Shown: positions 16,626 through 46,888 of the stretch, piece by piece
Numbering within the stretch: the first letter of the stretch is position 1
Layout: every line of letters begins with the position of its first letter
Source: Quercus robur
Taxonomy: Eukaryota; Streptophyta; Magnoliopsida; Fagales; Fagaceae
NCBI RefSeq assembly: GCF_932294415.1
Contig: NC_065535.1
Coordinates: forward strand, 25,694,782 to 25,758,781
Reading direction: 5' to 3'
Length of the DNA stretch: 64,000 nt
Notes under the pieces: generated by a model
Database searches by the model: none
What the model was told of the DNA's origin: nothing
Seen by the model: only the letters and a program-made list of their open reading frames with translations
Translations under genes and position numbers: made by a program

Positions 16626-17369
16626 TCAATTATATCCACCCCGCCCAGTGGTTTTGTAGCTGTTGTATCCTCCTCGCCCGTTGGTGTTGTAGTCCGCTTG
16701 AAGGAGCCTGCGTCCTACAATTAGGAATATTATGTTGTCAAATACTTGGATAGACACACAAATGTTGTAAATTTTTCTGTTTCCTTACCAAAGTTATGAT
16801 CATTTAAAATTAAAAAAGAAAGGATAAATGGGCAGCCATAAAGTTTTATTTCTTTTCTTGACCTTTAGTGCTTGAACTGAAAAAAAATGGTTGAGGTGCT
16901 TATGCTGTCACGAAGTTATAAAGCTAAATTCCATTGTGTTTGAGCATTCACAATGAATTCAATAATGTTCTAGTTAAAATTTTATTAGAAAGTATTTAAA
17001 AAAAAAAAAATCTTTTTGAATTCACTAAACAGCAAACTCTCTATTCTTTTTTATAATCCGTATAAATATTATATTTGTATTATTTATTTATTTTTTACCA
17101 AACGTTATATTTTTCACACATTAAAAAACGGGAAAAAAAAAAAAAAATTTACTTCTAACTTTCCCTCCTTCACCTCCCTTCAACACCATGATTGAGCCCA
17201 CCGCAACCACTCCCACAACTCAACCCCTCAAGATCATGGTCGGAGCGGATTCCTTCTGGTACGCCTTGAAGGACACCCTCGTCTCCCACCTCTACTCTCT
17301 CAACATCAAAGTCGAAGATCTTGGCACCTCCACCTACTACTCCATTGACCTCTTTTGCTTGCGGCGCTG

Positions 17370-17410
<41 letters not shown>

Positions 17411-18401
17411 TGAAAAAAAATGGACTTGACAAACCAAAATTTGGGAAAATGTTGGATTGATGAGTTCATTGTTAATGCTCTTATAACTCCAATAGGTTAA
17501 ATATATATCTAAGCTATTAGACAATTTGTGCAAAACATATAAGTTTAGATTTTGAAAGGAAAATGCTAAAATTAGTGTTGGAGCTAGAATTTTGAGTTAG
17601 GAGAAGCCGATGATCTATGGATTGTGGTTGTTTGGGCTAGCCGATATGTGGAGGGGTGACCAAGATATTAGAGGGAGGAGGGGCAAAGTGTTGGTTTCCT
17701 TGAGACCGATTTGAATTATACCCTTATATATTTACAATATATATATTCCTTTTGCAACTCGGGGCAGGGCCCTAGTGTGCATCCCTGATTATAACTAATA
17801 CAACTTTATTATGAAAGACTAAAAAACTATTCTAACATGCAATACATTTGATTGATGCTATTTATACAAAATACTAAATGAGGAGTTGAATTATTTTTTA
17901 TGATTGGTAATAGATAAATTCATAAAACCTTTTTTTTTTTTCTTGTGATAGATAGGTTAGAATCTTAGCTTATTAAGTCCACTTCATATAGGCTAAAATA
18001 TATACTAATTACTTTTTGGTGTATGCAGGATTCGAAACTCAAATATCAATACAATGACAATTTTACCAATTAAACTAATTAGAACTTATATAAATTCGTA
18101 AAATATAACATAACGAAATTTGTAGTATTTATATAAATACTAATTAGTATCACCCATTTGAAAAAGGGGCTAGCAAAGAAATTGCAATTTTAAGAATAAA
18201 TAGAAAAGTTTAGCATGCTAAATGAAACGTTTGAGCCAAGTGGAATAAAAGAAGCTCAAAGAAGGCCATTTTCTACAAACCAAGCTTAAGTTCTGGCACC
18301 GCATTATGAACCACAGCAGTAGCCACCTCAAAGGACATGAGGAGCAAGATTGCAAGAAGAGCAGCCAAAAGCAAAAACTTTGTGGCCCTATTAGCAGCCA
18401 T
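16626..18401 (-). CDS. Small secreted peptide precursor A (two exons)
   Basis: Exon 1 is 18281-18401 and exon 2 is 16626-16714; the 1566-bp intron has GT (GTTTGTAG) and AG (AATTGTAG) ends, and the split codon GGA joins in frame. The product is 69 residues. Residues 1-30 form a signal peptide: basic start MAANRATK, then a hydrophobic core FLLLAALLAILLLMSF, with a likely cleavage near EVATA. A short linker ends ELKLGRRLL, followed by QADYNTNGRGGYNSYKTTGR and the end GGYN, so a TxGRGxYN-like unit occurs twice. No cysteines. RRLL fits the RxxL pattern cut by the plant subtilase S1P, and Asp-Tyr is the context for tyrosine sulfation; both are inference. Gene B encodes the same plan with the same splice positions. 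I recognise no named family. A secreted signalling peptide is the likeliest role, unproven. Confidence 0.75.
17188..17351 (+). pseudogene. DRT102/RpiB-like gene fragment in the intron of peptide gene A
   Basis: On the strand opposite to peptide gene A, an ATG-started frame reads MIEPTATTPTTQPLKIMVGA, then DSFWYALKDTLVSHL and SLNIKVEDLGTSTYYSI. This matches the start of the sugar-isomerase (RpiB/LacAB) domain of plant DRT102 proteins, where the usual text is GADDFG...LKD...HLRSLNI.VEDLG. The match stops at a (GA)n microsatellite (17374-17404). Only about 55 codons are present, so it is a captured or retroposed fragment. The paralogous intron in gene B lacks it, so it arrived after the duplication. 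Confidence 0.7.
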
Positions 18402-18500
18402 CTTTTCTATACTAATTTCAGAGGAAGAAGATAATTTTTGCTTAAGAAAACAAAAATCTAGAGTGAAGATTACAGTGGGAAGTGTTGGGCTAAGAACACA

Positions 18501-18508
18501 TATTTATA
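18501..18508 (-). promoter_or_regulatory. TATA box of peptide gene A
   Basis: The minus strand reads TATAAATA, about 100 bases upstream of the start codon at 18401, a good distance for a plant core promoter with a 5' UTR of about 70 bases. The UTR is similar to that of gene B (CTAGA...TTTTG...AAGATAA shared on the plus strand), but I do not see the same box at B. Confidence 0.55.
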
Positions 18509-18843
18509 GATGTAGATCGATGAGGATTCTGCTGAGATTACTATATTGGGAAAGCAACAGGTTATTATAAAAAGATGTGGTAGCTGGACTTGGGAAAATA
18601 TACAACTTGGTCGATGCCGGTCAAGTTTATCAGTATAACATGTCGTCTTCATTACTCCCCATTCCATTGTTATCCACACTTTACTTCAAATTTTGCAGCT
18701 TGTAAATATGGGTTTGATATAAATATGTATAAAGTTTGCCGGTCAATCTTCACTGCTATATATATAACGATAAATGGTATTTTCTTAGGCTCCTTTTACG
18801 TATACTCTTTCATATGATATTTACAGTTGTACAGGTTGAAACT

Positions 18844-20303
18844 AGGGACGGACCCAGGTGGGTTCCACGAGGCTCGGGCGCCCTGGTCCTTTCTTTTTTC
18901 TTATTATATATATAATTTTTGTAGTTGAGTTCTTCTAAAACCTTAGGCACACTTCAACTAATACCTATCTAACTCAAAAACTTAATAAAAAAAATACAAA
19001 AAAATTCACAAGGGTGATTGTACTTTAGCAAAAAAATATTTTACCACAAAAAAATCATGTGTTATTGGAGAAGTTAAAACTAACTTTTTTGCAATTATAA
19101 TAAATTGGTATAAATACTAGTTGACTATAGTAAGTTGTTAAAAACATAATATAATATTTTATTAAGATTATCTCTCTTCCTTCAATTAAAAAACTCAAAT
19201 TATCTCTGTAAGGACACGATTCGTATCGAACCACAACAGTGTAGGGTTCGCACGTAAAAAGGCCCAAACAATATCATTTGTAGAGCGTGGGTTTGAAAGG
19301 TTAGGCCTCGGTCGCCATGTGGTGGGTTTTCCGTGATATCCATACATAGTTAAGTTGTCTTCACCCCTGGAGTCTTTCTCCTGAAGGTGGGTTGGGAGGT
19401 TCTGGTTTTTGGCCATTTTTCCCAGCCCCTTCTATGAATTGCTTACTTTTCTTTTTTATACTAGCCTGTGTTTTTTATCCTTCGTCCACGTGTAAGATCA
19501 ACATTCCAAGACTGATACTTATCCCATCAACCCCTACTCAGAGTGGTTGGGGGTGGTTGTAAAAACTGGAGAGTATGTCTTTGTCAGGTGCAGAGTATTG
19601 AATGGCAGTAAGGGCAGTTTTCCCCAGTCGTTTACGCTTTCCAGCATACCCTTTTATATTGGTACAGATATTTTAGATTTTTTTCCCAAGTTGTTTCTAT
19701 ACCACTTTTGCCCTTTCTTCCGAGGAGACTTTGGACCGGCCGAGGATTGAACCGTCCTCGACTGTATCCCAATGCTTATTTTGTACTTGCATTACAACGT
19801 CTGGGCCATAACCTTCCTCGGCTTGGGCCTTTGGACCTCAACGAATTAATAGAGTTGGCCCAAAAGATTGTTTTTACTCGGAGCTGGCCCAAATATTGTT
19901 GGGCCCCACAATCTCTTTTCCTTTATTATTTTAATGAATTGTTTATATTATTTTAAATGAAGTGATAAAAATAAAACATTTGATATTGAGTGTATTGTAA
20001 AATGATGTGGTAAAATAGATAAATTAGCTTTTTGAGATATTAAAAGCTAACTTAGTACTACTACCGTAAATGCTCTAACTTCAACAAAAGAAGAAGAAAA
20101 AAATCCTTACTAACCTAGTATTAAAAAAAACATTATTATTATTATTTTTTTTCATCTTTGTTGGTAGATGATTGCATTTTAATGTATTAAGAAATAACGA
20201 TTTTGTGAGTTTATAATTTGTTAATGCTATATGGATGTTTATTTAGAGTTTTTTTTTTCTTATACTCCGACTTCCTCTAACTTGAAATCCTAAGTCCGTT
20301 CCT
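18844..20303. mobile_element. TIR element hosting a solo LTR
   Basis: The left end AGGGACGGACCCAGG and the complement of the right end, AGGAACGGACTTAGG, form inverted termini. Such GGACGGA ends are common in plant non-autonomous DNA elements. Between them is AT-rich non-coding sequence interrupted by the solo LTR at 19207-19910. I find no clear target duplication, so the superfamily stays open. Confidence 0.5.
19207..19910 (+). mobile_element. Solo LTR with 5-bp target duplication
   Basis: 704 bp starting TGTAAGGACACGATTCG and ending GTTGGGCCCCACA. ATCTC lies on both sides (19202-19206 and 19911-19915). No internal region remains. Its TGTAAGGAC start resembles the Gypsy LTR at 6815-7330 read on the minus strand (TGTAAGGAC), so both may be Gypsy LTRs. 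It lies inside the TIR element 18844-20303, giving the order of insertion. Confidence 0.8.
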
Positions 20304-20540
20304 GAATTTAACACACATTTTTAAACATTTAAAAATGTGATATCCATACCATATTTAAGACTTGAAAAGTGATTGTGAAATGGAGTAATGTATATGAGAA
20401 AATTATTATCTTATTATATTATTATTATGAGCTTAGGAGGCTTTTAATTTTCAAGCGCCTGAATATTCTCTTAGATCTGTTACATACACACCAAGTAATG
20501 AAGTAATTATTCTTTGAAATGACCCCAAAAATGCTGCTTT

Positions 20541-20594
20541 AACCTTAAAAACTATTGGTTCTCAAAAAAAAAAAAAAAAAAACCTTAAAAACTA
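20541..20594 (+). mobile_element. Tiny poly-A insertion with 14-bp duplication
   Basis: AACCTTAAAAACTA occurs at 20541-20554 and 20581-20594. Between them are only TTGGTTCTC and a run of A (20555-20580). This is what an extremely 5'-truncated LINE or SINE copy would leave. It lies at the edge of the Stowaway-like MITE. Confidence 0.6.
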
Positions 20595-20886
20595 CTCCTT
20601 CGGTCTCACTTTTTTTTGTCTTCTGGTCTATTTTGAGATGTTTCAAAATATTGTCATATTTTTAAAAATAAAAATCATTAATTTACTAATGTTTCTATTA
20701 TACCCCTATTAATTTACTAATTCAATTTTTTGATAAATTTTTTTAAGAGTAGTTTTAAAAACTTATACATTTTTTAAAGATAGACAAGATAATAAATAAT
20801 ATTTCTTTAAAAAATTTAACTTTTTAAACAGGATAAAAAAAGGACCCAAAAAAAAAAAAAAAAAAAAAAAAAAAGGACGGGAAGAG
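20595..20886. mobile_element. Stowaway-like MITE
   Basis: Starts CTCCTTCGGTCTCAC and ends GGACGGGAAGAG, whose complement is CTCTTCCCGTCC. CTCCCTCCGTCCC-type ends with TA on each side (20593-20594 and 20887-20888) are the mark of Stowaway/Tc1-mariner MITEs. 292 bp, AT-rich, with an internal A run at 20850-20873; non-coding. Confidence 0.75.
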
Positions 20887-21179
20887 TATTAGACATATCC
20901 CTTCCGACTTCTAAGTTTTGTTAAAGTTGTAATTTACTACTACTACTGTCACAAAAACCTAGGTTATCTATCCTTCTTTTTGTCTCAAAGTAGCTACTTT
21001 TCTCTAATTTCGGCAATTTCCAAGTCAGGCCATCATAGCATTGCTTGGGAAGTCGTAGGAGAAAATTTGAATATGTTCAAAGTAAAGATGCATCATATAC
21101 GCACTTTTTTGTGAGGATTGGACACTGGATATATAATGAGTGCTCATGATATTATTTTTTTTTCCCTTCATATAGCACC

Positions 21180-21237
21180 TAGAATGCTTCATCGGTCATC
21201 CAAAAAAAAAAAAAAAAAAAAATAGAATGCTTCATCG
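21180..21237 (+). mobile_element. Tiny poly-A insertion with 15-bp duplication
   Basis: TAGAATGCTTCATCG at 21180-21194 and 21223-21237 flanks GTCATCC plus about 21 A. Interpreted as a target-primed retrotransposition that copied almost only the poly-A tail. Confidence 0.65.
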
Positions 21238-21771
21238 CTTGTATATATGTACTTTCTTTTGATTTTTTTGTTTATTATTGTTTCATAATTATATATGTAT
21301 GTCTTATAACTTTACACGTAGGATGGATATGTGTCTTTGAATTTGTCTTACGAGCGTAGTGAAAGTTTTTGGAGCTCAAAAATTTCAGACTAGAGACGAG
21401 CTTTTTTTGACTTGAAACTTTAAAGTGTCGGCCAAGCTGCATTCATTTTGTATGGGTAAATGTCATTTTCTCTCCGCTCCACTTGTAATTGGGCCCTTAT
21501 AGTCTTCTTCTTACAGATAAGTAGAGAATTTTAAAACACAGTCAAGGGAAACTACAGTTTTGAAGCAAGAAACAAGAAACAAAAACTACCATGACCATGT
21601 ACTATTAATTAGACTCTATAGTACATTCCTAGCTGATAGGTTAAGCTAAGCTTTCGCATGACGCTTTGAAGTGGAACTCAGCCTCTTCTTCATATTTTTT
21701 GGTGGTGGATAGAGCATGTGTTGTGCCCTTTGTGAGCAGTTTGCTGGGTCAACCATTTTAGAAGAAAATTG

Positions 21772-21804
<33 letters not shown>

Positions 21805-22572
21805 ACAAATTGTTTATATTCAAGAGTAGGTAGTTATAGCGTGTTTGGTTGGAGGTGATTTAGGGAAGATGGAAGATAGGCAAGGGAAAAGAGGTGGAAA
21901 TATGCCATTTTCTCTTCTTCAGTAAAGAGAGAAAATAAAATAAGTTGGAATAAAAGTAGGGTTCGGAGAATTCGTCAATGGCCTACAAATTGATAAATAA
22001 TTTATTAAATTTATAAATTGTAATTTATACCTTTAAAAATTGGATTCATCTTGATTTTGTCTCGTAAAATTCTAACATTTTGAATTCGGAACCCTAACAT
22101 CATATGTATTGCTTGCAAAAAGACTATTTTGTTGATTTCAACAGTTGTTGACGTGTTTATTATATGTCATCTTAACTCAAAAATCACATAGTTTTTATGT
22201 GTTAAAACTACACCGCCTTATGAGTGTAAAAAGAAATAAGAATAAGTATTGATTTTTTATTTTTGTTTTTATTTTTTGTTATATTTCTTTCACATCTCTC
22301 TCTCTCTAACTTCCTTACACAACAAATTAAATCACAGAAACACCCACACCCAACCAAGCCACCATGATATTAAACCCATCCAAAATCTCTTAACCAAACC
22401 TCAAACACCAACTCATTCCACCACACACGCCGACCCAGCTCTCCAATTACTTTGGCTACTTGTGGTGCCCAAAATTTCAAGCCAAACCTCAATCACCGTA
22501 CATGTTGACCAAGTGATTATCATCAACGTATGCCTTGTGACCCAATTACAAAAACTTTACCCCAATCACCAA

Positions 22573-22609
<37 letters not shown>

Positions 22610-23024
22610 CAGAGAGCTTCCAGTGTTGACTTTGGGATCCTCAGTGAATAGACAGCGTAGCTATGGATTGGAGTTAATGGAAACTAATGCGTGTGTGAGA
22701 GAGACGAGACAGTGGTCCATTTTTTCCTAGTGCGTGGGTCAATGGGTGTCTATTGTGCTTGTGGTGCTCGTGTAGTGTAGAGGTGCTCTGGAGTTGTCAC
22801 CAATTATTGAGTTTTTTAAATGTGTGATTGTCATGTGAGTTTTGAAAATGTGGTTTTTATTGGACAAAAATTGTTTCTCGAACAAAAAAATTGATTTGGA
22901 GGTTTGGTTATATGTGAGAAAGGTACTAGATACCTCACAACACCTAATAATAATTGGTACATAATTTTGATTATAACTTGGTAACAATTAATGTGTGCAA
23001 CATAGTATAAATAGAGTATCTGAA

Positions 23025-23078
23025 GTAAAACTTCTAAGTTTCTCAAAAAAAAAAAAAAAAAAAGAGGTAAAACTTCTA
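23025..23078 (+). mobile_element. Tiny poly-A insertion with 12-bp duplication
   Basis: GTAAAACTTCTA at 23025-23036 and 23067-23078 flanks AGTTTCTC, about 17 A and GAG. Same structure as at 20541 and 25214; the unique part also ends TCTC before the A run. Confidence 0.55.
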
Positions 23079-23149
23079 TATTATTTTGATAGTATTTCGA
23101 TTGAAACTTGGTAGTTTTTGACACTATTTTGGAAAAACTTTTGAAAAAA

Positions 23150-23640
23150 GTTTTGAATAGGAAAATTACATCATTTTGAGTTTATTTGACACAACAAACA
23201 CAAACACATAGCATTGAGCATGGATGAAATGGTTTGTTTCCAAACTATACATAATGTTAAGGGCCCAAATTCAGAATTTGAAACTTTATGTGGTAAAATA
23301 AAATTTATCCCAAACTTTAAGGTATAAATTGAAGAAAAGAAGAAAAAAAGTAAAGGTTAAAAAACAGGAAGAATAAAATAAGAAAAAATAGAATAAAATA
23401 AATATGTTGACATGGCTTTTACATGGTTCAAAATGATTCAGTTTTGAATAGGAAAACTACATCATTTTGAGCTTAGTTGACACTTAATAGAAACATAGCA
23501 GTGAACATAGATGGAATGGTTTGTTTCCAAGATGATACATAATGTTAGGGGCCCAAATTCAAATTTTGAAACCTAAGGGATAAAATCAAAATAAACCCTA
23601 ATTTTAAAGGTATAAATTGAAATTTAGTTTAATGCAAAAA
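23150..23640. repeat. Direct repeat, two diverged copies spaced 291 bp
   Basis: 23150-23345 and 23441-23640 share GTTTTGAATAGGAAAA, TACATCATTTTGAG, GGAATGGTTTGTTTCCAA-like text, GGGCCCAAATTCA and GGTATAAATTGAA. The first copy has an A-rich insertion near its end. Function unknown; probably part of a transposon remnant. Confidence 0.7.
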
Positions 23641-24941
23641 TGACCCTTATCTTTAAAGGTATAAATTGCAATTTAATTTAATTTCAAAACAAAAACCTTG
23701 CTTGACTAACTGCATAAAAATGAATCTCTTGGTTGGGAAGCATGAAAATAAGATAAGCTCCAATAGCATCTTGTTCAAGAATGTTATGTCACATTCTTGG
23801 GGTCCACGATAACTCAATGGCTCGGGAGAATTGCCCCAGATTTAGGTTTTATTAGACATCTAGCTTGATTTTGTACCAAGATCGTAAACCCAACAAGGCC
23901 AAATTTAGGCCTAGGCTTGAGGCCCCTCTTTACGGAAAAGGTCCAAATGTTGTAGAATATAATAAATTTTCTAAAAGAATAATGTTATGAACGAACATTT
24001 TCAAAACTCTTTTCATAATATTGACATAACAAGCTCTCAGTAGAGCAATATCCCTTTTACATGAGCTACTACTAACAACACTTTTTATTAGCACAAATTG
24101 TAGCATTTCATTTTAGTAGTTATGAAAAAATATTGTGAATTTTTTTGCCTACAAACTTATTGGAAAAAAATTTTTTTTTTACTGGGCGGGTTGTGTACCC
24201 TTGGCTCTCCTTTAAGAAGACTCATGAAATATTGGGCTAATAATAACCTCATGAAAAATATGCCATGAGCGTGATATATCATCATTATATAACAATCAAT
24301 TTTCTCCAACAACTTGAAGTTTTAAATTTTGTAAACCAATCTCTTTGCATGTTATAACTTATATTATTAATTAAGTGAAGTTGCAATAATGTTTATTAAA
24401 TTAGATTCTTGTTATAATTAATATTGTAGATAGTATTTCTTGCAATAATCAATTTATAGAAAATATTTGGTGGATGATGAAATAGTTAATAGAAAAATAG
24501 TATTATTGTAATGAAAACTATTATAATAATTTTTAAGATGTAATACAACAATATTACATAAAAATTTATGTTTTAAAAAAAAATACATGCAACATATGCA
24601 AAATATTACTCATAATACTTTTTGTAGTAGTTTCTGCATAAGGGAAATTTTCAAAATAAAAAATTGATAAAATCTTATTTAAGACTGATTGTGTCAAAAG
24701 AAGATTAAGTGGAGTAGCTACTATCAATTGGGAAAAAAATGTTAACAAAATCTAAATACAAAAACTTTGTTAATAATTTTACCTTTCATAAAGAAAGAAT
24801 GACTTTTAAACAAAAAAACTGTAATATAGAAAGTTAAATAATATATGTGTGTAAAATTGACTATAATTTATTGGCTTGAGCCTCAAATTTCTTTCTCATC
24901 TCTATCTCCACTGCTGCTAAGCACCCATAGTGGCATAGGCC
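23641..24941. other. Intergenic, AT-rich repeat remnants
   Basis: Near 23890-23940 is AAATTTAGGCCTAGGCTTGAGGCCC, text of a kind often found at the ends of plant DNA transposons; no partner end identified. No gene seen. Confidence 0.35.
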
Positions 24942-25213
24942 ATGAAAGTGGAGTTTGATGCTCTCCTTCGCAATTGTATTAGGTATACCGTTCCCTTTAA
25001 TAGAGCTCAAAAGTTCATTGGCTGCAAATGGGTTTTTCAAATCAAGCATCATGATGATGACTCTATTGAGTTGTACAAAACAAGGTTTGTTGCAAAATTG
25101 TTTCATCAACAACCTGATTTGGATTCCAATGAGACTTCCAGCCCTAATGCTAAACCCATTAATATACGTACATTCTCTCTTTTGATGCGTCTATATATAT
25201 ATCCTTTAGATTC

Positions 25214-25278
25214 AACTTCAACTATGCTCCTTCTCACAAAAAAAAAGAAAAAAAAAAAAGGAACTTCAACTATGCTCC
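25214..25278 (+). mobile_element. Tiny poly-A insertion with 17-bp duplication
   Basis: AACTTCAACTATGCTCC is present at 25214-25230 and 25262-25278. Between them are TTCTCAC, an A-rich run and GG (25231-25261). It interrupts the Copia pseudogene, so the pseudogene is older. Confidence 0.7.
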
Positions 25279-26299
25279 AACCTTGGATCGTTGGTGAAGA
25301 ATATTATGGGTTGGTACGTGCAAAAAATTGATTTTCAAAATGCGTTCTTGCGTAGTCAATTGTCTGAAGTGGTTTATATGTCTCAAGTTTTGGAATTCAC
25401 CCACCCATGATTTCCACATTATATTTGTAATTTACAAAAATCCATTTATGGCTTGAAACAAGCCCCACGAGCTTGGTTTTCAAGACTAACTAGTTGGTTC
25501 CTTTAACTTTGGTTTTGAAGGATCTAAATCAGATTCGTCTTTGTTCATTTAAACTAGTAACTATGTTTTTCTTAATCTATGAGGATGATATCATCATTTC
25601 CCACATCTAATCATCTGCTATTGATGATTTCCTTATGCATTTGCTAACTGACTTTGCTATTAAGGAATAAGTTGGTCTCAATTTCTTTCTAGGAATTGAA
25701 GTGGTGCTAAAATCCCTTGGTGTTCTATTGTCACCAAAAAAAAAAAAAAAAAAAAAATGTTATATCTTAGATATTCTTAACCGTACTAAAATGTTGGAAG
25801 CCAAGCCAGTCAACTCTACCATAGCTATACATACATCTACTCCTCTTTCTGACATTGAAGGAGATCGATTTGATGACGTTAACTTATGCACAAGCACTAT
25901 TAAGGTCATTGTAGTACCTCTCCATCACTGGCCAGATATAACCTATACAGTGAATAAAGTATCTCAATGTATGCCTAAACCTACAATCCTTCATCTGCAG
26001 TTTGTATAAAGACTTTGCGTTATCGCAAGCATACATTTCATTTTGGTTTGCAGCTGAAACACTGATTGGCTGGCCTAGTTGACATGATGATCGCAAATCT
26101 GCAAATAGGAGTTTTTTGTCTCCTAATTTACGTGAGAATCACATTTGTTGGGGTCATAAAAAGCATAAAACTATTGCATGATCAAGCATTGGAGCTATTA
26201 TAACGACAAGGCCTTGCCAATGCCGCTGCAGAAGTTTAAATGGTTACTGATGATGCAGAAAATCGTTAGTTGAGTTTTTATCTATGTAGAAGGACAATG

Positions 26300-26997
26300 A
26301 TGTTGGATTCATTCAGAGACAAACCTGCAATAAAATATGAAATAGAGAGAAAGAAATACACTAGTGTGGTGTTTGCCAAAAACTTTCCGATAATTAAGTT
26401 AGAATGAAGTTCAATTGAAATATATTGCAAAAGAATTCAACTTAAGAGTAGTTTTTGGGATGAGAATTATGTACCCTCTCCCTTTGGTTTGTGTGGGTTT
26501 TATAGTCCTTATCTTCATTGTCTAGATGAATATTTGCATTTATGGGATATAGAGCCGTTAGTAATAATGACTGACTTTTATTGTCTGTTAACGGTTATTT
26601 GTTTGTTGGTGTGGTACGTTACTTCTTAGCTATCTTGGACATTGAATATCTTTTATGGCTCCATCTGTCATTGATGTTCGTACGTTATGTCTTGCATTGA
26701 ATAACATTTAATTCTTCTGTCTAGAGATGGATGATCTTGATAAATTAACAATCATCAATAATGAATGCGAAGAGGTTATAGACTTCAATGGTCTTTTACC
26801 TTTTTTATCCGTTGGTCTCTCGGTTACGCTTTTGCCTATCTTGTGCGTTAACCGTTACTCATGTCATTTATGAGGAACTTATTTAATGGATGATACTGGC
26901 TTGATGGATGATGTTGTTTTTCTCTTCTTTTGCTATATGATAGACGAGAGTGATTTTTCTCCTTTTAAGATACAGTATTTGCTAAATGAGCTGGGTG

Positions 26998-27037
<40 letters not shown>

Positions 27038-27050
27038 GCCCTCCGGGGTT
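26300..27050. other. Foreign segment inside the Copia pseudogene
   Basis: Copia RNase H reading stops near 26290 and resumes near 27050. The segment between could be a solo LTR: it begins near TGTTGGATTC and ends near CCTCTCCTCA, with AATGA and AATGC as possible, imperfect flanking copies. An AT microsatellite lies at 27001-27032. The identification is weak; the interruption itself is clear. Confidence 0.4.
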
Positions 27051-27260
27051 ACTTGCCTCTCCTCAAATGCAGTTTTCCATATTTTGCATAAAACATGTTC
27101 AAAATGATTTCTACTTTGTTTGAGATATGGTCGCCAACAAATCTCTTATTATTCGATTATTGTCCGTGGCGATCAATTAGCCGATATTTTCACCGTGCCA
27201 TTATCTCCATCCAGATTTGCACTTTGATGGACAGGACCACATAATTTGGAATGCAAGCTT

Positions 27261-28394: not shown

Positions 28395-31119
28395 ATTATT
28401 TAGATCTAAGATTAGTAGGTCATTTTTTGAAATTCTTTGGTTGATAATTAAGTCGGCAATAAAATTGTGGGTTAATATAGCTTCAGCTTGTATGTAATTG
28501 GTAAAGAAAATGACAAATAATAACTTTAAAGCAAGCATGGCCACATCTTTAGAGTCCGTTTGTTACCGTTATTTAAATAACATTACACATATTTTTACAC
28601 TTACATATTTTTACACTTTTTCACTCAGAGGTCCTCATCCTTTAATTTTGATAGAAGTTATTGCCAGATTTTGCTCTAGATGTAATGCCAATACACAAGG
28701 CTGATTCGTCCATCCATCGTGATCTTCACTATCCTTCTTCCCACTGTAAACAATGAGAATTGTAGGTACATATGATTTGTTAACTACCACTGGGTTTGAA
28801 AACCTAGCCGATAAGACTAATCATACAAGTTTTATTTTTTAATTTATTTCAATTTTTAATAAAAGTGGAATTCAAATTTTATCTCTTATTTTTTACCACA
28901 AAAAGTTTTTACCAGATGAGTCAAAGAGAATTCACTACTAATCATACATATTAATAGTTTATAATATGAATTATGACAAACCCTGCTAACCACGTTAAAT
29001 TTTTAAGCAAAGAGAAGAACATAAATTGAATAAATATCAGCCAAACTTGGCTAATATTTATTACACACACTCGCAAAGTGTTTACCCTTCATAAAAAATA
29101 TTGGAAAGCTCCTGAGTACAGGTACTTGATAGATATGAGGAGACACTCTGGTTTTGCAGCCACTCTGCCTCATTCACCATACATTACACACAAAGTCCAC
29201 CTGCCATGCATTAGACTACTTGCATAAGTGCTTATAATAAAAAAATAAAAAATTAAAAAATTAAAAAAAAGAAAAAAAGAAAAAAGAAAAAAAAGAAGAA
29301 GAGCACATTTTAGTTTTTTAATTAAACCCAAAATTCATATACATCAAACCATGCAAAGTTTGTATAAAAAAATATGGTTACGATAATAGCTATGTAAATA
29401 TACACTGTCACTATTTATTTTTCATTTAGTTCTTTATTATTATTTTTAGGTATTATGAAGGAAGAGAGTGGATAGTGGTGATCGCGTGTGAAGAGAAAGA
29501 AAACAATTAAAAAAATAAAAATTAATATTTTAATGAAATGTAAAGTAAAATAGATAATGTAATGTGAGGTGTTCTGAAAAGTGAGCATGTAAATATTTTT
29601 TTTTTTTAAAAAATTTAAAAAGAGTAAGTTCTTATACTAAAATAGATAAAAATTTTTACATGAGATAACACAAAAAAAGATATATTTATATAACAAATTC
29701 AGTCTTGATTTTGTTGTTGTCGTTGTTGTTAGGAGCAAATTCAGTCTTGATGATTACAGTACTTTACACTTTTCAATAGGCCGGCTCTAGGCCGAGATCA
29801 CTTGGGCCTAGGACTAGCCCTAAGGGCCCGTTACAAAAAGTCCTCAAAGATATTTCGGGATATAATATTGTGTCCTTTTGTAAAGCGTTTTCAAAACCAC
29901 ATTTTTTCCATAGTAAAACTTTTTAAATTTCATAATCTCTTTCTAGTTATAACATTTTAAAATAAATCTAATTTAAAAAATTGAAAAAAAATTTGTGCGC
30001 TCTTTCCTTAACTTTCAAAAAGTCTCCAAAGTATTCCACCAATCAAAATATAGCCTAATTGAAATCATAAATTATTTCATAAAAAACAAAAATTTTATGA
30101 GTGTGACAAGTTATTATCCACGATGAATTCTCTCCAACAGTTTTAGAATTTAATTTTTGTAAACCAATATAATTAGGACTTCCTCATTTTGTTGAGTTGT
30201 TTTATGATTAACCATCACCAATGGCGAAGCCAAAAAGTTAACTTTGTAGATCCTCAATCTTATAGATATGTATGTGTATGTCTATTACAAAATTGTATGT
30301 AATTACTCCAACACTAAAAAACACAAAATTAGCTAAGAATCCTATACTTCAGGTGATACTTTGTGGTGTTTTCAACGGAAATATCCAGGGTTCAAATTCT
30401 TTCATTCCACATTGTAACTATCAAATTGTTGAGGAAAAAAAAAAAAAAAAAACACATAACTACAAGCTGAAAAGAAAAAATTATACCATTATCATTTATA
30501 TGTAGAGTAATTTGAAATTGTTTTTTAAACTTTACGTTTTTATTCATTTTTGAGATATAAAAGGAATATTATATAGGCATGTGTGTGCAGATATATTCTC
30601 AAATCATATGATCATTTACTTTGTAACTTATAAGTCATATAAATATTATATGACATTTTTCTTAACAGTTACATTACATTGGACCAAGATTGTGAGTAAA
30701 TAAATTACAAATTGTAGACACATAATCAACATAAATAACATTCATTGGTCATAATTTGGGAGATTTTATTACATTTTATACATAGAAAAAAAAAACACTT
30801 CTTATCCTATATTTATAAACTACATATATACATACACTTAACATATATTTTTGGAGGATTACAACTTTCACAAGAGTTTAAAAAATTATAAAATTTTGAC
30901 GGGTCCAAGTGGTATTTTTGTAAGGGGTATACTTGTAAACATACTATGACATATGGGGAAATAAAGGAATTTTAAAAAGTTTGGGGCCCTTGGCTCCCCC
31001 TGTTTACATGTGGTCACATTCTTTTTAAATAGAAAACCATGAAATAAACTATCAATCATGTTCTCAACGCCCACCCCGATCTTCACAAAAAATAAAATAA
31101 AATTATAAAGGAGAGAGAG
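28395..31119. other. Intergenic, repeat fragments
   Basis: Purine-rich A/G stretch at 29240-29305. GGCCGGCTCTAGGCC (29780-29795), CAATGGCGAAGCC (30219-30231) and GGGGCCCTTGGCTCCCCC (30982-31000) are texts seen at the ends of plant DNA transposons, but I could not pair them into complete elements. An A run of about 18 lies at 30435-30452. No gene recognised. Confidence 0.4.
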
Positions 31120-31585
31120 AGGGTTGTAAACGAACCAAGCCATTCATGAACAACTTGGACTCGGTTCGATAAAAAGCTCGTTTATGTTCGTTTGTTTACA
31201 AATAAGCCAAGCTTGAGCCTTAGTTTTAGGCTTGTTTGATAAACAAGCTGAGCTCAAGCAAAAAAAATTGTTCGTGAATAAGCTCGTGAACAATAGGGCT
31301 TGATACAAAACATGCCAAGCTTAATCTCATTTATAGCTTGATATATGTTTACTAAATAAACTAATTATTATAACATTACACATAAGTTTTGGAATGTTAA
31401 TTTATTTAGATTTGTGAAGATTATAGTTGTACGAATGACAAATGTGGATGTAAAAATTGTATTTTGAACAATTACTCAAGCTATAGACAATAAATGATGA
31501 TGGATGGATTTAATTATGTAAAGTTGTAATTTGAACAAATTCTAATCACGGGTGTTAAAAGTATGATAAAATGAGTATATTATAT

Positions 31586-31644
<59 letters not shown>

Positions 31645-31947
31645 AGTATATTTGTTTACTTGATTTTTGGTGATATAAGCATTGGATGATGTAATTTTTT
31701 TGGATCCCAAGCTAAAAAACTTGACTTGAACTCGAGTTTGAGCTTGATATTAAGCTCGAGCTTGGCTTGACTAATTAATCAAGCCAAGCCAAGCCGAACT
31801 CAAACTTTTTGGCATTCTCACAAGCTCAAGTTCAAACATTGTTTTTAGACTTGTCTCAAGCTCAAGCCAAGCTTGAGCATTTGATTTTTATTGACGAGTC
31901 AAGCTCAAACACACACTACTCAATAAAACTTGGCTTGTTTACAGCCC

Positions 31948-31948
<1 letters not shown>
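31120..31948. mobile_element. TIR element inserted in a GA microsatellite
   Basis: The left end AGGGTTGTAAACGAACCAAGC pairs with the complement of the right end, AGGGCTGTAAACAAGCCAAG. The subterminal parts are full of AAGCTTGAGC / GCTCAAGC repeats in both directions. (GA)5 lies directly left and (GA)n, about 60 bases, directly right, so the target is the microsatellite and the duplication is hidden in it. Inside are (CA)n(TA)n at 31586-31632. The AGGGCTGTAAAC end is usual for hAT-like MITEs; the class is inference. Confidence 0.65.

Positions 31949-32009
<61 letters not shown>
31949..32009. repeat. (GA)n microsatellite
   Basis: About 30 GA units, continuing the (GA)5 left of the TIR element at 31111-31119. 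Other clear simple repeats: (AT)n 27001-27032, (ATA)n 47013-47083, (GA)n 17374-17404, (AT)n 50181-50204, poly-A 63117-63153. Confidence 0.9.
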
Positions 32010-32013
<4 letters not shown>

Positions 32014-33889
32014 CTTTTTTCTAATTTTAGTTAGGCATGATTTTATTTTTTGAGAGAATTTCAACTTATAGTGTCTACCCCTACAATAGCTCTTTTTTAT
32101 CAAACCAAGATACCAATCAATTTTTGGTGTAGGTGAAAATTGAATCCCAGATCTCTTATTCAACCATCAGAGAATTTACTAGTTGACCTAACTAGAACCC
32201 ACTATTAAGTATGATTATAATTGTTCATTCCCATGCAAAAAGGAATAACTAAGGAGTTTAGATGAGACTACAAGTTGTGAGATTCATAGGGATTCATATA
32301 TGTACCCTCGAGTGGGCTAAACCATAATTTGACCTGATCAAACCAAATTAAAGTATAAGTTGTTTCATGACATAAGATATTGTACATTTCATTGGAATAC
32401 CTTTAAAATATATATATATATATATATATAAATATAGTATTTTTTAGAAAATTCTATAATATATTCTTTATTTTGTAAAATTTTGAGGAGTATTTAATCA
32501 AAATTGAATTTTTATAGAAATGTTTGTTCTTACCTATTAAGTTTTAAGAAGCCTTTAAATAGGCATTTAAAACAGGAATAAAAATTCATATTTCGAATAA
32601 ATTGATTCGAGATTTAGTCTATTTAGTCATTATATCGTTGCACTTTCAATCTCAAGACCTATTCTACACCAAGACCTTAACCATTATACATAACCTAGAT
32701 GGTGACCATCATATTTCCTTATTACAAAGATTGTTCAGGCATATTTATTTTAAAATGGTTAGAAAAAAATATTCACAATATTTTTAGGATATATAATAAG
32801 TTGTTATTGGAAACATGACTTTTAATCTTTTATATGGGTTCTTCACTAGTATTACTTTTATGATGCACCAATTACAACCACGTTAACAATTATGAAAAAT
32901 GCCATTTATGTCAATCGATGGCGATATATAGTGACTATAAAAAATAAAATAAAATAAAATAAAAGAGAGATGAAGATATAATTAAAAGTCACAGTGTGTT
33001 ACTGTTACAATGGGCCTATATAAACTTAAGGAGGACTACACCTCCCAATTCATAGGCCTTGAGCTCACACTTCTTTTTTGTTGGGTTTACAAGTGAAGTC
33101 TCATATTGAATAATGATGAGAAGAATAAGTAGTTAAAATAACATAATTGAGCACATACACATTGAGCTTAGGCCTTTTGGGTTAAAATGTGTCTCTATAT
33201 ATTATATTAATTATTTAATGAAACTCTTCAAGGTGTTTATCTTCTCAATAACTGATATCAAGCCCTTTTGCAAATAGAGTAGGATGGGTCCTTTTCGTAA
33301 TTTGAGCAAGGACAGTATATTGCACCAAGCATAATGGTGAGGTGCAAGGTTCCCATGGAGGATAAACAGTTAAACACTTTTCCCTGTGCAAGTCATTTGG
33401 ATTTTGCTCACAAATTATGCTCTCAAGTAATCTCCTTCTCATCTTTCATGCTCTCGTGTTATTCGTATTATTTCTTTCTCTTTAAGCTTAGTATAAATCA
33501 ACTATTTTGAACTTCCACTATAACGAAAATAATATTTCTTTCATAAAGTGGGGCGGTTGTATGAAATTATTATGTCTTTGAATAGTGAATACATATGTAT
33601 TAGATGTTACAACATCTGTATTAGGCTTTTTGATTGATCTGCAGCCTTGATCATTGATACAATTCATTTTATGTGTCAATCATTTCTAACACAGATAGAG
33701 CCATAGAGGTGAAGGAGAAGCGAGAACTCAAAAAATTTTAGAATAGCCCAATAAACCTATATATGATTAAATTCGATGGTATTTTGTCCAAGTAACAATA
33801 TTATGAAAAGTTGGAAATGGCCCAAAGCTTGCTGTTGGGAATCAAATTGACCAACTTGGAAAAATTCACTAGAAAATATTATTAAAATT
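32010..33889. other. Intergenic; LTR-like fragment
   Basis: AT microsatellite at 32409-32430. 33015-33240 (GGGCCTATATAAACTTAAGG and AAGTCTCATATTGAATAATG) resembles the leader part of plant LTRs, without definable ends. No gene seen. Confidence 0.35.
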
Positions 33890-34110
33890 GTATAATACTT
33901 TACAAATGTTTTGGTCATTTTTAGTGGTTCTTGAGCTATTTTGGTTGTATTTGTTATTTTAGAAGTTGGAGGTATTTTAGTTATTTTGGAGGTCCATAGG
34001 TATTTTGGTGGTTACTACTACTAGAATAATTTGATAATTTTGGTGATTTAAAGGATATTTTGGTCATTTCAATGGCTTTGGAGAATTTTAGTTATTTTGG
34101 ATTTTGGTGG
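33890..34110. repeat. Degenerate TATTTTGGT minisatellite
   Basis: The motif ATTTTGGT / ATTTTAGTTATTTTGG recurs about every 25-35 bases with much variation. A strand-biased G/T-rich stretch, probably from an LTR. Confidence 0.5.
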
Positions 34111-34385
34111 CTTTTCAAAATTCCAAGGGCTGGTGCCTTGGCTCTTCCAAGGGCCGGTGCTTTTCCTTCGCTAGATCTCTATTTGGTCGGATGGATCATA
34201 GATCTTAACGCAGCTTTTGTAAAATAAAATAAAGTAAATGATGGCCTAAGGAAAAAATGGGGTGGTCGGCCACAAGTGGCCCAACCCATATACAAAAGAA
34301 AAGGAATGGATCTTGTTGTTTCATCAGACTTTATGCTATGTATGTGCACAGCTCCAGCCCATCTGCACCGCTCAAAAGTTTAGAA

Positions 34386-34438
34386 CCATATGTTACTTTT
34401 TTTTTTTTTTTTTTTTTTGACGAACAGACCCATATGTT
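34386..34438 (-). mobile_element. Tiny poly-T insertion with 9-bp duplication
   Basis: CCATATGTT at 34386-34394 and 34430-34438 flanks a T run and GACGAACAGAC. Read on the minus strand it is a few unique bases followed by poly-A, like the other tiny insertions. The duplication is shorter, so the case is weaker. Confidence 0.45.
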
Positions 34439-34592
34439 TCATAGAAGAGACAAGCCTGCCATATCTAATTGGATAGAAATGAAAGAACCGTCTCTACCTT
34501 CATGTTACTCAGTTACTGGGGTTTTTATTTATTTATTTATTATTATTTTTTAGTTCTACTTAAATCAGTCAATCATAATACTGCTTCGGTAT

Positions 34593-34765
34593 ATTATCGC
34601 GCACTTTTGGTACGGTAGTTACTCCACAAGTATAAGTGCTTGTGGAGTGTGGAGGACAAGGGTCAGGGTTCAAGTTTTTAGGAAAGAGATTCACACACAT
34701 ATATACTTAAATTAGGTTAGAATAGAAATTCTATATTGTATATATATAAAAAAATAAATAAATAA
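34593..34765 (+). mobile_element. SINE with 16-bp target duplication
   Basis: 173 bp. AATACTGCTTCGGTAT occurs at 34577-34592 and 34766-34781. The 5' part contains a tRNA-like stretch: TTTGGTACGGTAGTT (A-box-like), AAGTGCTTGTGGAGTGTGG, and GGGTTCAAGTTTTTAGG with the pol III B-box core GGTTCAA. It ends in an A-rich tail (TAAAAAAATAAATAAATAAA). Long perfect duplication plus internal pol III promoter identifies a tRNA-derived SINE, inserted plus. Confidence 0.8.
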
Positions 34766-34781
34766 AATACTGCTTCGGTAT

Positions 34782-35477
34782 CAATGTAACCCATCACGAA
34801 AGCCATATCCAAGTCCTTTGTGCGAGGATTGAGTCAATGGATTCTTCCTCCAAAATGATGAGATTGGTAATGAAAAAATATTATTGGTGATAAAGAAGAA
34901 TCAACTATGACAATAAACTAGTGCTGAAAGAGAAGTGCGAGTGCCAACAGATTTTACTACAATGTTGGAGCAACAGGAAGACTTAATAAAGCCATGCTAG
35001 ATAGTGTACCTGAACCATTGCTTGATGAAGAAAAAATTCAACAAGCCTGGGTGAACATATTGTGAAGAATGAGTTTAATACATATGGTACCGATAAAGTT
35101 TCCATGTGTTTAGAGTAGGGTTTGTTCTGTTTTTCTTTCTAAGTCGCTGCAATAATATTCATTTAATTAGTGTTTATTACACACATATTATTGCACACAC
35201 TTTTAGAGATGCAGAAATTGTAATGAAATCATGACTTGAAGTTTGTGTAAAAGTGTGTACAACAAGTTGTGTGAAACAAGTATTTCTTTATTCATTTATT
35301 AAACCTTTTGCACGCAACAGAGTCCGTAAATGTAACTAGGATCTCTACTAGTAAGTAGTGGAAAAGTGTCAATTTATTCACTTATTCTATAGCAACACAT
35401 TGGAAACATTGTTTCGGGTGCCAAGATACGTTTATTGGTGGTTCATTTGTAAGTTGTGTTCATTTATAATGATAAAA
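34782..35477. other. Intergenic
   Basis: No gene or clear element seen. Confidence 0.35.
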
Positions 35478-35493
35478 ACTAAGATGCCTTGTT

Positions 35494-36191
35494 TTTTTTT
35501 TTTTTTTTTTTGATAAGCTGCAATTTCATTAAGAAAGGAAAGAAGAACACAAGGGGTAATCTTCCTTACAGAGAGCCACAAAGGCAGGGGGAAGATTATC
35601 CTTATTGAAAAACAAAGAAGATAAAGAGCATAAAGAAAATTTTGCAACATGATGGGCAAGACAATTACAGGAACGTCTGACCCAATTAAATGCAGAAAAC
35701 ATAAAAGAAGACCGAACGGAGAGGATGTTATCAGTAGTAGTTTTGATGGCCCACGGTGGGGAGAGGTCAGGTGAGTTGACAGCATCAAAACACGCCTTTG
35801 CATCTCCCTCAAAAATCACCTGGATCCAACCTTCCTTCGCAGCCAACTGCGTCGCCCAGAGTAACGCCTCAGATTCAGCCACAAGAGGGGAGGTTACCTT
35901 AATGATTCTAGCCCAGATTTTGATGGGAACACCAAGGTGGTCCCTAGCAACCACAGCGAGGGAAGCATGAGTGGTGGATAGTGCCGCATCTGCATTAATT
36001 TTAATCCAGTCGGGGGGAGGAGGAGACCACGAAGATTGGTGAGCATGGGTATGACCAGGAGCTGGGATAGCGAGAGCTCGTTAAACTTTATGCGAATAGA
36101 CCGGATGGAAGACAGCAAATCAATGGGGCTGCCGTGGTGTAGGGCTAGATTCCTGAGATTCCAAATTTCCTCCAATGTCAAAGCCATGTTG
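35494..36191 (-). mobile_element. 5'-truncated LINE with RNase H domain
   Basis: On the minus strand the insertion ends in poly-A (plus-strand T run 35494-35511) preceded by GCAGCTTATC. ACTAAGATGCCTTGTT flanks it at 35478-35493 and 36192-36207, a perfect 16-bp target duplication. The coding part is the C-terminal RNase H (RVT_3) domain of a plant L1-type LINE: DWIKINADAALS near 36005, VVARDHLGVPIKIW, VAESEALLWA near 35880, VIFEGDAKACFDAV and a final CNCLAHHVAKFSL. The acidic residues D, E, D are retained. A frameshift separates IWNLRNLALHHG upstream from the RNase H frame. All of the endonuclease and reverse transcriptase are missing. Confidence 0.85.
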
Positions 36192-36207
36192 ACTAAGATG
36201 CCTTGTT

Positions 36208-37149
36208 AATTTCACAAGAAATGAGATGAGCCAATCTTCACATTCATTTTGAAATTTCAAAATAATTAAACGAAAGTAGTGTTCTTTTAAGAAGACGACT
36301 TTCAACTATCACCTCTAAACACAGCTATATGAATCCATGCCTTTTGTTTCTTAAAAGTAATAATGTTATTAGTTACCGTTTAAACACACATGTATAATTT
36401 TACAATGGGCTTAATGTTTTGTACAAATTGTTGTGCACACTTAAATTTGTACTTAAATCCATGATATTGTGATTCTGAGTTATACTTTGTGTCATTTTTA
36501 ATTAGTAGTTTTGTATCCATCTGTCGTGGGACCAATCATGGTAAAGAAATGACACTTTTGAGGATTGTATATCTACCTATTAATTGTAAGATCAATTATT
36601 GTTAATTTTTTTATTGTCGCACCAAATAATTTGTTGCATAATTTTCCAAGTAAATACAATTTAAAAAAAAAAAAAAATCATGTGAAAAAATATGAGTAGA
36701 CCCAATCTGTTTTAAACTTATTTGAATGACTTTTTTTTTTGATCGTGAACCCATTTTTGACCTGAGCTCAACTGATCCCACCCAACCTGCTCGCCACATC
36801 ATCTTGAATCACTTCTTTTGATCAGGTGATTTTGATGTGTTTTAGAAAATGCCCCAAACTGACCTTAATTTAGTATTCAAGATGGGGTGCAGAGCCATTC
36901 TTAGGCGATGTTGGATCAACATTACACCTCAAATCCCAAAAAACTTTTCATACAAAACTCCAAAAACTTTAATCAGCGTGTGCAAGCTTAAGATTCTTCG
37001 GGCGCAAAGCTAGGGTATAGATGGGTTTTGCTTTGTTCGAAAACTCCTTCCATTTTAATGATTCTCTTGGTTAGGCCATTAACAAGAATAAGCCCTCTAA
37101 GGAATGAGGAGTTGAGTCATAAGAGGTGAAAAATGAGGTATCTACATCA
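36208..37149. other. Intergenic
   Basis: AT-rich; A run at 36662-36677. No gene recognised. Confidence 0.35.
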
Positions 37150-38800
37150 ATATCACTTAGGTGGATTGCTTAAAGTGGTGAGTGTTTCTATCATTTGTTT
37201 TGTATCCTTTAGATAGTGAGCTTTTTATCTATTAATACTATTATTGAGTGTCTACTTTAGGGATGATAAAAAATTCTTGCTTCACTTCGCTTGAATTGTC
37301 TGCCCTATTTCACCCTACATGAATTTCCACAACCTGAAGAAGTGATGGGCTGAGGATGGGTTTTGCTTGCCCCGCCTCGCCCCGCCCCACCCCACCCCAA
37401 ATGTGTGTATATATATGTGTGCGTGTATTTTATTTAATATATATATTTAAATAATTTATACATATAATTTTATATATATATATATATATATGTATATAAC
37501 CTTCAAAATACTTGTCTCTCCAACCCGCCCCAAACCCAACTTGTTTCGCTCCTGCTCTATATTGGTCTTCCTTGCTTGAAGATGAGACAAGATAGGGGGA
37601 GGGCACCCATGATCCGACCTTACCCCAAACCATTGTTATCCCTAATTTTGCTCGTGTTTCACTTGTAATCTAGGAAGTACGGATACTTCATTTAAAGTAT
37701 CATACCTGTGCCGTACTTGTATCATACCGGTGTTGTACTTGTAGTTTTATGTTATAATTATTCAAAAATTGCTCGTGTAATCATATCGTACCCGTACCTG
37801 TGTCCATGTCCGTGTATACATAAGTAAAACTCAATATATATATATATATATATTACCAATTTTCATGCTCTTACTAAGCTGTTTTGTTGTCTAAGAAGAT
37901 ATAACATTTGCAGTCAATAGGTGATCCACTAACATCAATTTAAAATTTAACTGTAGCGGCATATGGCAATTCCAAGTTACGCCCCCATCAACATTTCAAT
38001 ATGAGACACTTGTTTTAGAATAGGACACAGACCAGCTAACATATAGCTAGACGAGAATTGGTCATATATTTGTTCGACTGCAGGGTCTGTGAGCATTGTA
38101 AAAAAGGCTGCAAAATATTTAGCTTATGCAGTAGACAGGAAAACAGAAGATGTCGCAGAAGAATCTATATATATTTGTCCCACACTCAAAATATCGACCA
38201 TACATACATATTATCGGTGTCCTGTTGAATATGGAGTTTCCTATAAAAAAAATATAAAAAGAAGGCTTAGGTGTAGTATTTAGGTGTTGTTCTTTAGATT
38301 CTTTTTTTAAGACTTTGCCGAGTGACTTTTTTCTCATAAGATAAAAATGTATTTTTTAATTAAATAACCATATGATAGAATTTTAAGAGAAAAATCTAAA
38401 AAACAGCATCTAAAATATTGTACATAAGTTTAATCCAAAATATAAACACCTAAATCTAATGTGAAAGTATACAAATGGTATGAAAAAATAATTTTCTATA
38501 GTTTCGTTTCCTAAAAAGATGTATCCCAAGTATGTTGTTTTATTCATAATATATAATAATAAAATAGACAATTTTTTTACCACTACGTACTTTCATATAA
38601 ACGCACGACTTCACACATCCTTTTCATTATTACCATCCCAAAGTAACATATATATGACACCACCTCCATTATTGCATATTTAGCAACAACTTATCCAGAA
38701 CCAAAGTATATTAGGGGTTCTGGAATCAAGCTTAATAGTACAAGGTAGCAACTATTTGGGACACCGTTACATGTATTACAAATTATTAATGATTAGGAAA

Positions 38801-39759
38801 TCAATTATATCCTCGCCCAGTGGTGTGGACCGTGTGGTAGCTATTGTATGCTCCTCGACCAGTTGTGTTGTATTCCGCTTGAAGTAGCCTTCTTCCTGCA
38901 TAGACAAATATTATGTTATCAAAACCTCCCTCTCTCTGTTTCTTTAATAATGTTATGCTAATTTAAAATTTTAAAAATAAATAAATCAATAAAGAAAAAG
39001 AAATAAAGAGAGGATAAAAAGGGCAGCCATCACTCTTGAGTGCAGGCTTTAATTTCTTATCTTAACTTTTAATTTTGCTTGAACGGAGAAAAATGGTTGA
39101 GGTGTTCATGCTAAATTGCATGATCCTATAACTCCATACATATAAGCTTGGCTTTTGAATAGGAAAATGCTTCAACTATTTTAAATTTTATTATCCAAAA
39201 CTATCTGTCAATGAAAGTATTGATATGACTTGAGCAATATAATAAATGAGTGTTAAAATTATTTTTTATGATTTGTAAAACATAAATTTTTATAAACTTA
39301 TGTAATAAAGTTTATAGTATCTCTAGTACTGTTATAAAAAACGGGTTGGCAAATAGATGATAGTTTTTTTTTTTTTTTTTTCCCTCTAATAAGGTAAATA
39401 ATGAGGGAGGAGGGTGTGCTTTAAACAACAGATATGAGATGACATGAAAATGTCATTAGTGCTATGCTATTACTTTTTTTTTTTTTTTTGATAAGTTGCT
39501 ATGCTATTACTTGAATCCTCTACTGTAATTTTAAAAATGCATAGGAAGGTTTAGAGTGTCGATACAAGCTAAATGAAACATGTGAGCCAAGTGGAATAAA
39601 AGATGCTCAAAGATGGCCATTAATAGTCTACAAACCAAGTTTAAGTTCCGGCTGTGCATTATTATCAACCGCAGCAGTAGCCACCTCAGTGAAGATGAGG
39701 AGCATGATCGCAACAAGAACAGCCAAAACCATAAACTTTGTGACGCTCGTTGCAGCCAT
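38801..39759 (-). CDS. Small secreted peptide precursor B (two exons)
   Basis: Exon 1 is 39636-39759, exon 2 is 38801-38895, with a 740-bp GT-AG intron (GTTTGTAG donor, CTATGCAG acceptor) at the same codon as in gene A. The product is 72 residues: signal peptide MAATSVTKFMVLAVLVAIML, then LIFTEVATA with a likely cleavage after it, linker to ELKLGRRLL, then QAEYNTTGRGAYNSYHTVHT and the end TGRGYN. Compared with A, Asp before the first Tyr is Glu (acidic kept), and the second unit is TTGRGYN after a 3-residue expansion (HTV). The conservation of RRLLQA, acidic-Tyr, GRG and YN while the linker varies suggests selection on the C-terminus. An in-frame ATG three codons upstream (39768) exists; the 39759 start is chosen because it aligns with gene A. 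No named family recognised. Confidence 0.72.
39460..39512 (-). mobile_element. Tiny LINE-tail insertion in the intron of gene B
   Basis: TGCTATGCTATTACTT at 39460-39475 and 39497-39512 (16 bp) flanks only 14 T and GATAAGT. On the minus strand that is ACTTATC plus poly-A, matching the 3' end of the LINE at 35494-36191 (GCTTATC plus poly-A). It is therefore a copy of the same LINE family cut to about 7 bases. Confidence 0.75.
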
Positions 39760-46671: not shown

Positions 46672-46888
46672 ATGGGAGACTCTAGTGGTGATGAAAATGT
46701 GCTAGTTGGTAAAGTACCTCTCCCTAGGGTAGATAAATTTAAGAAAGTTTCATTTCTACCTCTTTTCTTGATTATTTGAAGTTGATTCCTAATTTTAGGT
46801 GATGGTTTACCAAGAAACTTAGCCATATTAGATTTGACTGTTGTTCTTACTTATATAAACTATAGGGGATTAACCATTATGGGATGAC
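46672..46888 (+). pseudogene. Polyamine-transporter-like N-terminal fragment (right arm)
   Basis: Mirror of the start of 42450-43212: ATG then [32 protein letters not shown] and a stop, then GDGLPRN and the [15 protein letters not shown] block. Same stop codon as the left arm, so the stop is older than the inverted duplication. Confidence 0.75.

Follow-up and report, generated by a model that had tools for sequence, protein, structure and literature searches.

Do two short, similar genes in the oak genome encode precursors of a released signalling peptide, or are they small proteins of the cell wall? The question is raised by a 64,000-nucleotide stretch of Quercus robur DNA (contig NC_065535.1, positions 25,694,782 to 25,758,781; hereafter the window), in which two genes, here called A and B, lie on the minus strand with their ATG codons 21.4 kb apart. 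The explanation that we favour, and hold tentatively, is that A and B are duplicated short secreted precursors, derived from genes for glycine-rich proteins (GRP) or arisen alongside them, which would release a signalling peptide into the apoplast.

The product of gene A is 69 aa long and that of gene B 72 aa, each encoded by two exons (Table 1); initiation at the first in-frame ATG of gene B would give 75 aa, three residues more. The translations confirmed what the initial annotation had described, namely paired genes with a leader, a variable linker, the block ELKLGRRLLQA, an acidic residue before Tyr and two C-terminal GRG-YN units, and two exons in the same splice phase, which is phase 1 in both genes. 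The intron follows residue 40 in A and residue 41 in B, the splice donors are G/GTTTGT in both, the acceptors are TTGTAG/GA (A) and ATGCAG/GA (B), and the first eight intron bases, GTTTGTAG, are common to the two genes. Reading exon 1 through into the intron meets a stop one residue on, so that the tail is encoded only when the intron is spliced out. A hydrophobic run over 12 residues (mean Kyte-Doolittle values of 3.4 and 3.5) and an A-T-A end indicate that the leaders are probably signal peptides. The block ELKLGRRLLQA is identical in the two products; ahead of the first Tyr-Asn, A has D and B has E, and the tail repeats are GRGGYN twice in A and GRGAYN plus GRGYN in B, each product ending in Tyr-Asn. 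Neither has a Cys after the signal peptide. The chain after ATA contains four Tyr in both, with 18% Gly, a net charge of +4 and an isoelectric point (pI) of 9.99 in A, and 12% Gly, +2 and 9.4 in B. An AlphaFold2 model of A from its single sequence, a weak kind of model from which we draw on the tail only, gave one helix over residues 3-52 and predicted local distance difference test scores (pLDDT) of 59 and 57 in the last two blocks, so the tail of A is predicted to have no confident fold.

Similarity alone is little proof that these frames are used, because the untranslated regions (UTRs) and intron ends of A and B are alike too; selection is seen in the codon pattern instead. In a codon alignment threaded on the proteins, A and B differ at 16 bases of the C block, which runs from ELKL to the C-terminus and comprises 33 aligned codons; 12 of these changes are in third positions (binomial P 0.0008), and only 4 of the 33 residues are altered. 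When the same base changes were placed randomly in the block, the mean was 10.9 residue differences, and four or fewer were obtained in 0 of 20,000 trials. Across the signal peptide and linker, 20 bases and 14 residues differ, the latter against a random mean of 13.2 (P 0.78), and the share of third-position changes differs between the two regions (Fisher P 0.018). For the C block, the nonsynonymous (dN) rate is 0.085 and the synonymous (dS) rate 0.595, a dN/dS of about 0.14 from as few as 33 codons; for the signal peptide, dN is 0.22 and dS 0.12, a ratio of about 1.8 from as few as 29. This regional comparison, which the initial annotation had proposed, bears out its description of conserved C-termini with changed linkers. 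By this pattern the reading frame is real, the tail is constrained, and leader and linker are drifting freely. Decaying or non-coding duplicates with residual frames could also show similar UTRs and intron ends, but we consider this very improbable in view of the third-position bias, the lack of any random placement as conservative, the conserved splice sites, and exon length differences in multiples of three (3 bases in exon 1 and 6 in exon 2), by which the reading frame is preserved.

There are two copies in the genome, as judged by searches of the 785.7-Mb, 42-contig assembly that score the best candidates only, so that a very diverged copy could escape. Protein A at E 0.001 gave four matches (four candidates scored), all of them exons of A or B, and the C block of B at E 10 gave two matches (three candidates scored), both exon 2. 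A degenerate GRRLLQA pattern occurs at nine places in the genome, two of which are A and B, and a GRG-YN tail is present at none of the other seven. Downstream of one of these places (L010) there are some Gly and Tyr codons, but with stops among them; its upstream frame resembles that of another locus (L014), and both were therefore taken for a repeat. A pattern of GRG[GA]YN followed by a stop, which fits the end of A and not that of B, was found at three places in the genome, one being A and the other two unrelated. The GRG-YN unit, searched for with a loose DNA pattern, gave three matches against 1.39 expected, none in A or B; this is not above chance, and the evidence lies in the paired genes, not in the pattern. 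No relatives were found among 160 pattern stretches when viral contigs were searched with protein A, nor among 52 stretches when GTDB genomes were searched with the A/B alignment. A search of PDB sequences with A gave no match, and Rfam at its gathering score and a tRNA search gave none in the window.

GRP-like origin of the pair is likely, judging from the leader and gene plan. PF07172, whose Pfam gathering score is 30 bits, is the best Pfam match of whole A (20.1 bits) and whole B (25.4-25.6 bits), and the only model listed for the signal peptides alone (15.2 and 12 bits, E 0.035 and 0.34), whereas the mature halves matched no Pfam model. The earlier statement that no known family has this end is therefore partly upheld: the mature halves are without a Pfam match, and six longer motif strings of A and B do not occur in the literature searched, but the leader and the gene plan are similar to those of GRP genes in the same genome. 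Shorter motif strings do occur, on subjects that are different to judge by title; GRGYN, for example, opens an unrelated Arabidopsis signal peptide (PMC7459403).

A search of the same genome with PF07172 gave 11 matches among 26 candidates scored, one of them above the cut-off, and eight of the 11 cover profile positions 1-34 only. Six GRP-type loci were spliced by frame, not from transcripts, with alternative sites possible in two (L019 and L024); the other five matches (L020, L026, L027, L028 and L029) were left outside this set, and in L028 and L029 a crude scan found no second exon of the GRP plan. Each of the six has a phase-1 intron, placed after 30-37 residues of the protein, and a second exon in which acidic residues are followed by Lys and Tyr or His, and these in turn by Gly- or His-rich repeats. 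A and B share this plan, which does not belong to the Pfam definition of GRP. As L021, L022, L023 and L025 are near-identical, the six amount to approximately three independent cases. These four loci cluster on contig C37 at about 9.01-9.19 Mb, the second exon being Gly/His-rich in three of them and Asp/His-rich in L025. The likeness to GRPs consists of a Leu-rich leader, in most cases with a (D/E)VA-type stretch after it, a phase-1 intron at a short distance from the leader, and a second exon in which acidic residues near Tyr or His are followed by repeats. Unlike GRPs, A and B are only 69-72 aa long with 12-18% glycine, they carry the invariant ELKLGRRLLQA, and their acidic residue adjoins Tyr, whereas GRPs have Lys between. 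In view of the low glycine and of scores below the Pfam cut-off, we term A and B GRP-like derivatives and not GRPs.

In the favoured explanation, the pair arose from, or alongside, PF07172-type genes of the same plant; exon 1 supplies the signal peptide, with a probable cut after ATA, and exon 2 the conserved cationic Gly/Tyr/Asn tail. An S1P/SBT-type subtilase would then probably cleave after RRLL within the secretory route, a peptide ending in GYN-COOH would reach the apoplast, and there a leucine-rich repeat receptor kinase of the kind that recognises a C-terminal Asn could be its receptor. Of this, the gene anatomy, the constrained tail, the presence of two copies, the common upstream word and the GRP-like gene plan are shown; expression, secretion, cleavage, receptor and signalling are inferred. 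That the constraint is confined to the tail was counted in favour of a released peptide. RRLL, present in both products and proposed from the start as an S1P-type site, fits the RxxL/RxLx cleavage rule of SBT6.1/S1P and SBT3.5 given in passages of PMC13082318; the closest sites printed among those passages are TGRRLM/G of PROSCOOP12 and RRIL/A of RALF23, and in CLEL6 the cleavage sites of SBT6.1 are RRLR and RRAL (passages of PMC7162652). The terminal Asn of both tails matches known ligand ends, as receptors read C-terminal residues that include Asn in RGF1, AtPep1 and IDA (passages of PMC11756074). The same article classes glycine-rich proteins as non-Cys and non-modified, and the string GRG is absent from the first 300,000 of its 467,095 characters. 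The predicted cut after RRLL leaves 24 residues in A and 26 in B, with pI values of 9.4 and 8.4, which corrects the 25-28 residues suggested initially.

Known peptide families resemble A and B in part. RALF peptides have a cysteine-bearing C-terminal domain and a YISY-type motif; the motif is missing in A and B, and no RALF model is among their Pfam matches. The core motifs of RGF/GLV/CLEL and CIF peptides are unrelated to the core sequence of A and B, which share with them an S1P-type site (CLEL6), Asp-Tyr (in A) and a C-terminal Asn (RGF1), but differ in having a tail without Pro and, in B, Glu-Tyr. A tyrosine-sulfated hormone of the PSK/PSY/RGF/CIF kind would be suggested by the Asp-Tyr of A, three residues past the subtilase-like site, yet we regard it as quite improbable: Asp N-terminal to Tyr is reportedly needed by plant TPST (passages of PMC7162652) while B has Glu there, no Pro follows RRLL in either product, and the mature halves have no Pfam match. 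Sulfation is thus doubtful, and the original proposal of a tyrosine-modified peptide is weakened by the Glu-Tyr of B. RALF23 has RRxL immediately before its C-terminal peptide, as A and B would have, but they are cysteine-free and much shorter than its 138 residues (passages of PMC13082318). PROSCOOP precursors (72-117 aa, cysteine-free, two to three exons, in tandem clusters; passages of PMC6382344) are similar as short, cysteine-free, multi-exon precursors, and also in a GRRL[LM] subtilase-type site (passages of PMC13082318), an RxLx/RxxL motif being found in many PROSCOOPs but not in all. In contrast to SCOOPs, the translations of A and B have no S-x-S motif and carry their own motifs at the extreme C-terminus, where SCOOP motifs are not found (passages of PMC6382344), and SCOOPs are reported only from Brassicales (passages of PMC11331138).

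The regions upstream of A and B share a word, TTGACCGGC, which occurs three times in 64 kb against 0.09 expected, every time within 350 bp upstream of one of the two genes. Aligned by BLAST, the upstream regions of A and B cease to match approximately 80 bp before the ATG, and TTGACCGG, the first eight letters of the word, is in none of seven GRP-type upstream regions. The longer 15-mer TTGACCGGCAAACTT, with three mismatches allowed, gave two matches, both exact, against 1.69 expected, which is not significant. TTGACC we take to be a WRKY site of the W-box type, but the claim of W-boxes was lowered: per 400 bp, TTGACY occurs twice for A and once for B, when the window would predict 0.53, and two of the seven GRP-type loci likewise have it upstream. 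Only the longer word TTGACCGGC stands out, and it is fair to infer that it is a control element common to A and B. If it acts as a W-box, it would point to a use in stress or defence.

Table 1. Positions in the window of the exons and introns of genes A and B and of the words shared upstream of them.
Feature	Position	Strand	Description or upstream position
Gene A exon 1	18281..18401	(-)	signal peptide, linker, ELKL(G)
Gene A intron	16715..18280	(-)	phase 1, 1566 bp, GTTTGT...TTGTAG
Gene A exon 2	16626..16714	(-)	(G)RRLLQADYNTNGRGGYNSYKTTGRGGYN + stop
Gene B exon 1	39636..39759	(-)	start = second ATG; first in-frame ATG 39768
Gene B intron	38896..39635	(-)	phase 1, 740 bp, GTTTGT...ATGCAG
Gene B exon 2	38801..38895	(-)	(G)RRLLQAEYNTTGRGAYNSYHTVHTTGRGYN + stop
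TTGACCGGCAAACTT, gene A distal copy	18732..18746	(-)	-345
TTGACCGGC, gene A proximal copy	18616..18624	(-)	-223
TTGACCGGCAAACTT, gene B copy	39888..39902	(-)	-143

The main rival to a released signalling peptide, although a somewhat unlikely one in our judgement, is that A and B are miniature structural wall GRPs, secreted whole and held in place by Tyr cross-links, with no signal released. Their leader and gene plan are GRP-like, and GRG-YN repeats with four Tyr per mature chain would suit such a role, but glycine makes up just 18% (A) and 12% (B) of the chain, there are two repeat units only, and the invariant, non-repeat ELKLGRRLLQA would not be needed by a repeat filler. Apoplastic antimicrobial peptides, with cationic, Gly-containing tails acting directly on microbes, would agree with the positive charge and high pI after ATA and with the upstream TTGACC words; as the charge is modest and unequal between the copies, cysteines are lacking, and the tail has no confident predicted fold (pLDDT 57-59 in the single-sequence model), we rate this explanation as improbable as that of a sulfated hormone. 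A bolder form of the signalling-peptide explanation would make A and B an undescribed family split from wall GRPs. In such a family, evolution would have removed the glycine filler and fixed both an S1P-type site and a bivalent YN-GRG-YN-GRG-YN tail, and a common stress-type promoter word would control both copies. We think it unlikely in this full form; if true, it would describe a route from a structural wall protein to a receptor ligand.

Several points weigh against a GRP-derived precursor of a released peptide. The repeat-like tail would fit a structural role too, and the PF07172 scores of A and B are both below the cut-off. Phase-1 introns after signal peptides are common among secreted proteins, so that GRP descent is likely but without proof. 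The B signal peptide joined to shuffled tails still scores 13.0-23.6 bits with PF07172 (9 of 9 controls), hence the score comes mostly from signal peptide and composition, and the tail adds little to the case for GRP kinship; PF07172 is itself listed among models whose signal-peptide portion yields false matches (passages of PMC2912341). BLAST without composition correction aligned A with L019 at 34% identity over 61 residues, and phmmer against the six GRPs was weak (best 10.8 bits for A and 11.6 bits for B), but signal peptide and low-complexity sequence drive these scores, and the matches are suggestive only. The width of any family cannot be inferred from two sequences of one genome.

Other features were observed elsewhere in the window, whose copia- and gypsy-type retroelement domains and VQ-motif protein mark it as plant DNA. 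An inverted repeat at 43099-46785 has 1648-nt arms that are 97% complementary, a 391-nt centre, and 124-nt outer arms at 42974-43097 and 46785-46908; if transcribed, it would form a long hairpin and be a possible source of small RNA. A Ty1-copia retrotransposon at 54515-60073 has 300-bp terminal repeats that are identical to each other, and its single open frame of 1609 aa carries gag, integrase and RVT_2 domains, and the identity of the repeats together with the single open frame suggests a recent insertion. On the minus strand, 10668-11384 encodes a 238-aa VQ-motif protein (PF05678, E 6.2e-13), presumably of the MKS1/VQ type, and at 2290-6473 a gypsy-type retroelement survives as remnants spread over separate frames, two of which were scanned and carry RNase H, integrase zinc-binding and gag domains.

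Genes as short as A and B, split by introns of 0.7-1.6 kb, are easily missed by gene finders, and numerous receptor kinases are still without a known ligand (passages of PMC11756074). If the tail is a ligand, the pair would illustrate how a wall-protein gene can give rise to a signal; if the products are only small wall proteins, they would still clearly exemplify a GRP-like gene lacking the glycine filler.

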